Of a stretch of 64,000 nucleotides of DNA, positions 13,340 to 14,234 are shown piece after piece. The notes under the pieces were generated by a model. The model searched no databases. It worked only from the letters and a program-made list of their open reading frames with translations, and was not told where the DNA came from. Made by a program: the position numbers and the translations under genes. The DNA lies in contig NZ_CP082922.1 of NCBI RefSeq assembly GCF_019931675.1, forward strand, positions 124,001-188,000. The letters are read 5' to 3'. The DNA comes from Nocardioides rotundus. GTDB taxonomy: Bacteria > Actinomycetota > Actinomycetes > Propionibacteriales > Nocardioidaceae. The stretch's first letter is position 1; the number at the start of each line of letters is the position of its first letter.

Positions 13340-13510
13340 GGCGGGTAGGACAGGACTGTGATGGGTCAGGTTTGGCGATCAGGCCCCTATTCGGTCACCG
13401 CCCTCCCGGCCAGCCGGCGTGTGCGTTGATCGCCACCTGGCCGGCGCCGACAGATCAACGCCAAGGCACCGCGGCCAGTCGTAAGCAAGGGTCAGACCCC
13501 GGCCAGGCAG
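13340..13510 (-). ncRNA. Candidate IS110 bridge RNA
   Basis: Read on the minus strand, the 5' non-coding end contains four guide-like matches in the order known for IS621-type bridge RNAs. TACGAC (13478-13483) equals the left target. TGGCGTT (13457-13463) is the reverse complement of the right target AACGCCA. ATAGGGGC (13383-13390) equals the left donor, the inner end of the IS at 12168-12175. TCACAG (13356-13361) is the reverse complement of the donor junction C-TGTGA at 13528. The two target guides are separated by 14 nt that can form a GGC/GCC-tipped hairpin, and GGCGATCA/TGATCGCC (8 bp) can form a stem in the donor half. The outer ends are estimated. Confidence 0.6.
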
Positions 13511-14234
13511 CCCCTGATTCTTCTCACAGTCGTAGGAGTCCCCGACCGACCCGATCGAGGGCTTCGCGCCGGCCTCGGCGAGCCGCTCGGTGTAGCGGAT
13601 CGAGGTGTACTGGCTGCCCGCGTCCGAGTGATGCACCAGCCCCTGGATGGAGTGGCCTTCGCGCTGGCGTTGCCAGATCCCCATCTCGAGGGCGTCCAGC
13701 ACCAGGTCGGTGCTCATCGACCGGGACACCCGCCAGCCGGTGATCACCCGGGCGAAGACGTCGACACAGAAGGCGACGTAGACGAACCCCGACCAGGTCG
13801 CCACGTAGGTGAAGTCCACAACCCACAGCTCGTTGGGACGAACAGCCACGAACTGCCGCTCGACCAGGTCCTCCGGCCGCGGCGCAGCGGGGTCGGGGGG
13901 GTGGTGCGCCTGCTGGCGCCCCGGACCGCTCCGGCCAGGCCATCGGCAGCCATCAGCCGCTCCACGGTGCAGCGGGCGACCTCGATGCCCTCGCGGTTGA
14001 GCTGACGCCACACCTTGCGGGCCCCATAGACCCCGTAGTTCGACTCATGAACCCGGCGGATCTCGATGATCAGCTCCGCATCCCGAACCGCCCGGGCCGA
14101 CGCGGGTCGCTTCGCGTGAGCCCAGTAGGTCGCCGGGGCGATCTTGCAGCCGTGCTCGGACAGCACCCTGCAGATCGGCTCGACCCCGAACTCCCTGCCA
14201 TCGACCCTGTCGTGGCGGTGCTCGTCGATGAACC

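Follow-up and report, generated by a model that had tools for sequence, protein, structure and literature searches.

An IS110-group element nested in an IS3 transposase gene, with a probable bridge RNA aimed at the interrupted codons

Anatomy of the nested element

The DNA analyzed here (the window) is a stretch of 64,000 nucleotides from Nocardioides rotundus, whose genome is one contig of 4,088,569 bases. It carries an IS110-group element of 1364 bp on the minus strand (12165-13528), counted from the T of the left end to the C of the right end; since one C is shared, 12166-13529 is an equally possible placement. The ends were set without use of guides, by comparing five copies of the element in the genome with seven uninterrupted copies of one IS3 host. 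An empty site reads TTCGACAACGCC, and in the filled form the left junction is C/T and the right junction C/A (here and below, a slash between bases or residues marks the insertion point). The element is the sole difference between empty and filled IS3 copies, with one ambiguous C and no target duplication, and these natural empty sites show a clean insertion. On the minus strand the left target half TACGAC (13529-13534, core C at 13529) covers the codons Y-D of the IS3 transposase, and the right half AACGCCA (12158-12164) the codons N-A. The insertion point TACGAC/AACGCCA, as given in a preliminary description of this DNA, proved right (13534-13529 joined to 12164-12158, with a single ambiguous shared C). 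The target site of the window element may be written as TNCGACAACGC or as TACGACAACGCC. Terminal inverted repeats were not seen when the end letters of the IS110 element were judged by eye.

The recombinase (transposase) of 369 aa is encoded at 12187-13296 (minus) and matches PF01548, PF02371 and NF033542, the NCBIfam family of IS110 RNA-guided transposases, for which the score lies above the cut-off. It has the DEDD (RuvC-like) domain and the C-terminal Tnp domain with an SG motif of the IS110 group, and the long non-coding DNA upstream of the recombinase, 232 bp as compared to 22 bp downstream, is likewise that of this group. Comparison with the PDB gave E 1.7e-6 for an IS621 chain and E 3.8e-6 for an ISCro4 chain; the IS621 protein is shorter, with 328 residues in chain 8wt6_A. 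D26, E78, D116, D119 and S289 of the window protein align with D11, E60, D102, D105 and S241, the catalytic residues of IS621 according to Hiraizumi et al. (2024, PMC11208158).

The element is located inside an IS3-family host at 11913-14618 (minus), with imperfect terminal repeats, CCT on either side and pieces matching NF033516. These IS3 transposase pieces (NCBIfam match) adjoin the IS110 reading frame on both sides, which shows that the latter splits the IS3 gene. Terminal repeats of the host were found in the window copy (L001) and in a second genomic copy, L005. The host itself sits within a longer reading frame, which by eye we take to be DUF222/HNH-like. The window IS3 transposase (13379-14238, minus) gave profile matches in two frames and is therefore frameshifted besides being interrupted; in L005, of the same IS3 type (503888-506351 of the contig), one longer frame is kept ahead of the insertion. 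By eye we also noted numerous short GTCGAGCCTGTCGAGAC-like repeats at 10298-10640, upstream of the interrupted DUF222-like frame, and the IS110 relatives L033, L036, L068, L070 and L073 seemingly lie within repeats resembling these, again by eye.

Bridge RNA, guides and core base

The left ends of 27 elements, the window element and 26 relatives (47.7-100% identical), were aligned and used for a covariance model. The consensus structure has 36 pairs, and at least one double compensatory change was found in 27 of these; the inner parts of the donor loop were supported less well than the other consensus structure. In the window the model matches 13306-13521 (minus) with 167.6 bits, the window sequence being among the 27 used to make it. 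The predicted target-binding loop has a basal stem with its 5' arm at 13491-13509 (alignment columns 13-31) and its 3' arm at 13434-13451 (columns 78-95), and the arms of the donor-loop stem are at 13394-13412 (5', columns 121-140) and 13334-13351 (3', columns 195-214), all on the minus strand.

A match at E 1e-8 or better was found in 81 of 96 sources. The 96 include L016, a member of the training set, and eleven sources that are copies of the training sequence L001 or relatives with >92% identity to it. In a second run all of 100 sources, most of them chosen for already having a model match, showed one on the recombinase strand at most 150 bases from the expected upstream place. Over the source genome the model found exactly the five copies; in 14 other loci of that genome the best match had E 0.076, and no Rfam family reached its gathering score within the window. 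The preliminary description had made its reading depend on a conserved two-loop RNA in homologous elements, and such an RNA is present. Taken by itself, the region has an ordinary minimum free energy (z 0.15); support for the structure comes from the compensatory changes among relatives. One source, L094, has two bridge RNA matches (622-828 and 2606-2818, minus) and a recombinase match beside each, one of them partial, i.e. two related IS110 copies in a row.

When the letters were checked, the four guide matches were present on the minus strand in the order that had been claimed. The left target guide is TTACGAC (13478-13484), whose TACGAC part is common to the D/N clade described below and its targets. 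The right target guide is GGCGTTG (13456-13462; reverse complement CAACGCC); TGGCGTT lies at 13457-13463, and pairing extends to the core-facing G at 13456. The left donor guide ATAGGGGC (13383-13390) is identical to the right end of the element, and the right donor guide TCACAG (13356-13361) has the reverse complement CTGTGA, which is the core C plus the left end. The donor guides therefore match the ends as described earlier, but the labels given to them had to be exchanged: ATAGGGGC, the left donor half of the circle, belongs to the right end, and TCACAG to the left. These donor matches in the window were seen at ends that had been fixed first, from the empty sites.

A CT dinucleotide core as in IS621 was not found. 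A single C is common to donor and target, and the base that follows it on the target side is not constrained (A 42, C 22, G 10, T 8; n=82). Next to the guides there are two stretches that may act in a handshake-like manner after strand exchange. The candidate handshake guide ATC (13453-13455, minus), located 3' of the right target guide and reading GATC with the core-facing G, would be able to pair with GTC of the element's right end with one G-U pair, a possible contact, and GTCC (13356-13353), beside the donor guide, could pair with the other partner.

A putative circle-junction promoter consists of a -35-like TTGACC in the right end (12177-12182, minus) and a -10-like AAGAAT in the left end (13517-13522, minus), which would be 18 bp apart once the circle is closed. 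Of 79 elements, 70 have TTGAC in the right end, and the junction promoter scored 8.53, as compared to 7.42 with the left end shuffled and 6.59 with the right end shuffled. These values fit the circle-junction promoter described in two reports (PMC11208158, PMC11187229). In the cycle that we propose, the element would leave as a circle, and closure of the circle would set the -35 box of the right end ahead of the -10 box of the left end, so that the bridge RNA would be transcribed. The donor loop would pair with the circle junction and the target loop with TACGA-C-AACGC, and the DEDD/Ser recombinase would swap strands at the shared C; the other steps of this cycle are borrowed from IS621 and ISEc21.

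Copies, relatives and the conserved target site

The genome holds five full copies of the element (1358-1364 bp; two more matches of 32-33 bases were ignored), all flanked by T[A/T]CGAC and AACGC. All five are at [Y/F]D/NA codons, across three IS3 types: GDSYD/NAMAES (window copy and L005), GDSYD/NAMAEA (L002) and GSCFD/NAAAEA (L003 and L004). The catalytic Glu of IS3 transposases lies a few residues past this motif. The earlier expectation that other copies would be found at matching targets was thus borne out for every copy in the genome. The 12-base target TWCGACAACGCS has 11 uninterrupted occurrences there, as compared to 0 for the reversed pattern. Seven of these are in copies of the third IS3 type, equal to the interrupted copy over 430-1080 bases on the left and 235-236 on the right. 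The remaining four lie outside IS3 genes and are all empty, as would be expected either from counter-selection or if recognition requires more than 12 bases. The same match is present in L009 (Nocardioides ferulae) and L027 (same genus).

Such an arrangement might be inherited, if an IS3 and its inner IS110 were copied as a unit and the site had been hit once or a few times. L001 and L005 do share one IS3 type and L003 and L004 another, and an empty copy of the L001/L005 type was not recognised among the IS3 matches of the genome. Against this, the same codons are interrupted in three IS3 types in one genome and in many more across genera, and for one type both two filled and seven empty copies are present. 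As a general claim inherited nesting is already refuted by these data and we consider it very unlikely, while co-movement of single IS3/IS110 pairs is possible.

To compare guides and flanks among relatives, the target guides of 100 loci were taken at fixed alignment columns. The ends of these elements were placed by the donor guides, which leaves the target side as the sole independent test. Junctions passed at 93 loci on the left and 86 on the right, of which 89 and 82 were distinct, with apparently misplaced junctions (e.g. L076, L084, L089 and L126) kept in. The left guides matched their flanks at 5.40 of 7 positions, as compared to 2.67 after permutation (sd 0.12; highest of 10,000 permutations 3.11; n=89), and the right guides at 4.13 as compared to 2.23 (sd 0.12; highest of 10,000 2.71; n=82). 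When [CT]GAC/CAAC junctions were left out the values were 5.42 vs. 2.42 on the left (n=72) and 3.83 vs. 1.92 on the right (n=65). The guide matches had been thought to exceed chance, and across the relatives both sides are above all 10,000 permutations. Possibly, the recombinase protein rather than the RNA recognises the IS3 motif, and the guide-like words derive from shared ancestry or chance. Guide and target are both nearly constant in the D/N clade, as such recognition would have it, and are therefore inseparable within that clade. In elements outside the clade, guides covary with their flanks well beyond the permutations (72 left and 65 right junctions), which already largely refutes recognition by protein, and IS621 and ISEc21 have been shown to be RNA-guided (PMC11208160, PMC11187229). 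We therefore hold protein recognition to be extremely unlikely.

The D/N site was mapped with profiles from IS3 pieces, built separately for left and right. At 16 loci the pieces stop exactly at D and start exactly at N, and seven more (L012, L014, L015, L020, L027, L028 and L128) have an exact D or N boundary on the one side tested. In a tree of 105 recombinases, 104 of them different, a clade of 24 rows (support 100/99) contains 19 of the 20 D/N rows; the remaining one, L128 from a Klebsiella plasmid, is outside it and has a WD codon pair on the left, NSPMER on the right and the guides TGCTGGGAT and CAACA. The D/N label requires 5 changes on this tree, as compared to 18.6 when shuffled. A mostly actinobacterial, well-supported clade thus keeps the D/N site across many IS3 hosts. 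The target, previously given as the IS3 gene, is indeed in IS3, and it is more specifically a conserved catalytic motif hit by the clade in many IS3 types. Five members of the clade are sited elsewhere: L017 (ND/NP, with an rve_3 integrase core as right flank), L018, L057, L076 (right flank an intron-type HNH) and L127 (left flank GTSFD, nadB-like by eye).

A forward test with a guide-only pattern over 294 genomes of the family gave 16 places in 10 genomes, 12 known beforehand and 4 new. Among the known ones, L184 is the same DNA as L008 and L181 the same place as L029. All four new copies (L180, L185, L186 and L188) lie behind the YD codon pair of an IS3 transposase, and the one with its right flank within the locus continues with NAMAEA. 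L029 is 87% identical and has the same guides, yet it lies outside any IS3; L029/L181 therefore makes one of the 16 places a miss. The guide pattern, searched as one exact gapped pattern, had no match in viral contigs. In L028 (around oriented position 2616) and L029 (around 2250) the right end of the IS110 element is followed directly by CTGTGA, with which left ends begin. These loci were considered as tandem IS110 pairs, which was rejected as no second recombinase was found in the DNA of the loci; the extra CTGTGA is perhaps a remnant of tandem insertion.

Within the D/N clade the guides are not tuned to the codons of each host, as the matches of 17 elements were 5.24 on the left vs. 5.50 permuted (P 0.94) and 5.65 on the right vs. 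5.59 permuted (P 0.38). The third base of the Tyr codon alone leans toward host tuning (0.82 vs. 0.58, as observed in the 17-element set). The guide of this clade therefore looks like a motif consensus tolerating codon variation, with five bases and the core on the left and about five bases on the right.

Taken together, we read the locus, with a probability of about 0.93, as an IS110-group insertion sequence of an ISEc21-like branch, with a left-end bridge RNA aimed at the [Y/F]-D/N-A codons of IS3 and breaking its IS3 host. The preliminary description saw here a complete programmable recombinase system with its natural target preserved; a structured RNA shared among relatives and five out of five copies at matching targets argue for this, and from the sequence we infer that the system is active. 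The target guides spell the [Y/F]-D/N-A codons, and therefore any IS3 with the usual codons would be a landing site that is broken by insertion. Selection presumably favours such a target, which is conserved, present in many copies and of no harm to the host cell.

Catalytic codons as possible targets and comparison with known systems

Relatives in other lineages interrupt other motifs. One clade (support 100/99) unites L067, from the same order, with the E. coli plasmid element L126, and the junctions of both are at HSD/[R/Q]GSQ, the second D of IS3. To classify further targets, Pfam was run on 30 flank pieces of 27 loci, hand-picked from a list of 110 candidates ordered by their length and GC3 and including two frames chosen by eye. 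Mobile-element genes were found at 9 loci, DUF222 at 5, other genes at 5 and nothing at 8, with the DDE_3 match of L092 and the DUF222 match of L039 under the curated cut-off. The junctions lie between TNGKA and ERFH in an IS481 gene (L031, left junction two bases off), between IWSN and NPPERLN in IS256 (L120), between VWDN and LNTH in an IS630-like gene (L092), between NRES and QAVF in a TnpB zinc ribbon (L064) and between CDAH and HLEPW in the HNH-like part of a DUF222 gene (L034). In L064 one RNA-guided system is thus found inside the gene of another. DUF222-type genes on the opposite strand were recognised in the flanks of L040, L046, L125 and, weakly, L039, and the flanks of L042 and L044 had no Pfam match; DUF222-type genes are a possible further multicopy target. 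L080 appeared by eye to be IS5-like near YRRL, had no Pfam match and was not counted.

The IS3 gene could be chosen merely as repeated DNA, in which case the coding of an active site would be coincidental. In line with this, some relatives are in DUF222-type genes and, by eye, in palindromic repeats, and IS110 elements often target repeats (PMC11208160). On the other hand, the junctions of separate lineages lie no more than about five codons away from a catalytic residue, in two motifs of IS3 and in IS481, IS256 and IS630. The sample of classified flanks being non-random, a preference for catalytic codons is therefore a hypothesis, and we regard choice by repetition alone as the weaker explanation, doubtful though by no means far-fetched.

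We see an even chance that an entire branch of RNA-guided IS110 elements largely parasitises other mobile elements, and that its guides repeatedly and independently settled on catalytic or metal-binding codons. The motifs would then be D/NA and HSD/ in IS3, the codons just before the Glu in IS481 and before the Glu in IS256, those behind the second Asp in IS630, the zinc ribbon of TnpB and the HNH motif of DUF222 genes. The host cell itself might benefit, with the element kept as an RNA-guided silencer of transposons, and five IS3 copies in the genome are indeed broken by it. Signs of domestication are absent, as the element has full ends, several near-identical copies and a clade spread across many families, and seven target copies are still empty; we judge a silencer to be very unlikely. 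If the branch does parasitise mobile elements, a guide aimed at codons that the victim cannot change would have a target kept from species to species, comparable to the conserved active sites in which inteins and homing introns settle. A single nested insertion leads to a testable targeting rule for natural programmable recombinases, by which they would pick rival transposons at conserved coding motifs. The relatives further make up a natural collection of over 80 guide-flank pairs (left 89, right 82), together with empty and filled sites in one genome.

In ISEc21, an IS110 element is inserted at the codons of the second D of IS3 without target duplication (Siddiquee et al. 2024, PMC11187229). 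The window element is similar in belonging to the IS110 group, in having an upstream RNA and in targeting catalytic-motif codons of IS3-family transposases. It differs in its site, which is [Y/F]D/NA, before the Glu, rather than the codons around the second D; second-D targets were found in L067 and L126. The latter, 43.7% identical to the window element and placed between HSD and QGSQ of an IS3 gene, is ISEc21-like by target (PMC11187229), and in the recombinase tree it is outside the supported D/N clade. In the literature listings and abstract openings that were covered, with most subscription papers and all bioRxiv preprints outside, ISEc21 was the sole report of an IS110 element aimed at transposase catalytic codons.

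IS4321 and IS5075, of the IS1111 group, are related elements that also land in other transposons, namely in the inverted repeats of the Tn21 family; their target is thus a terminal repeat, whereas that of the window element is a coding motif. Elements of the IS1111 group carry their RNA in the right end (PMC11208160). The window element is like IS621 in its left-end RNA, with the target loop before the donor loop, four guides and a DEDD and Ser recombinase (PMC11208160, PMC11208158), as well as in the predicted circle-junction promoter and possible handshake extensions (PMC11208158). IS621 targets REP repeats and uses a CT core that its donor and target have in common (Durrant et al. 2024, PMC11208160; Hiraizumi et al. 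2024, PMC11208158), whereas the window element shares one C and leaves the next target base free. This core rule appears to be less strict than in IS621, a point that matters for the freedom with which recombinases may be retargeted. New here are the D/N site and its conservation, the repeated targeting of catalytic codons and the single shared core C in place of CT.
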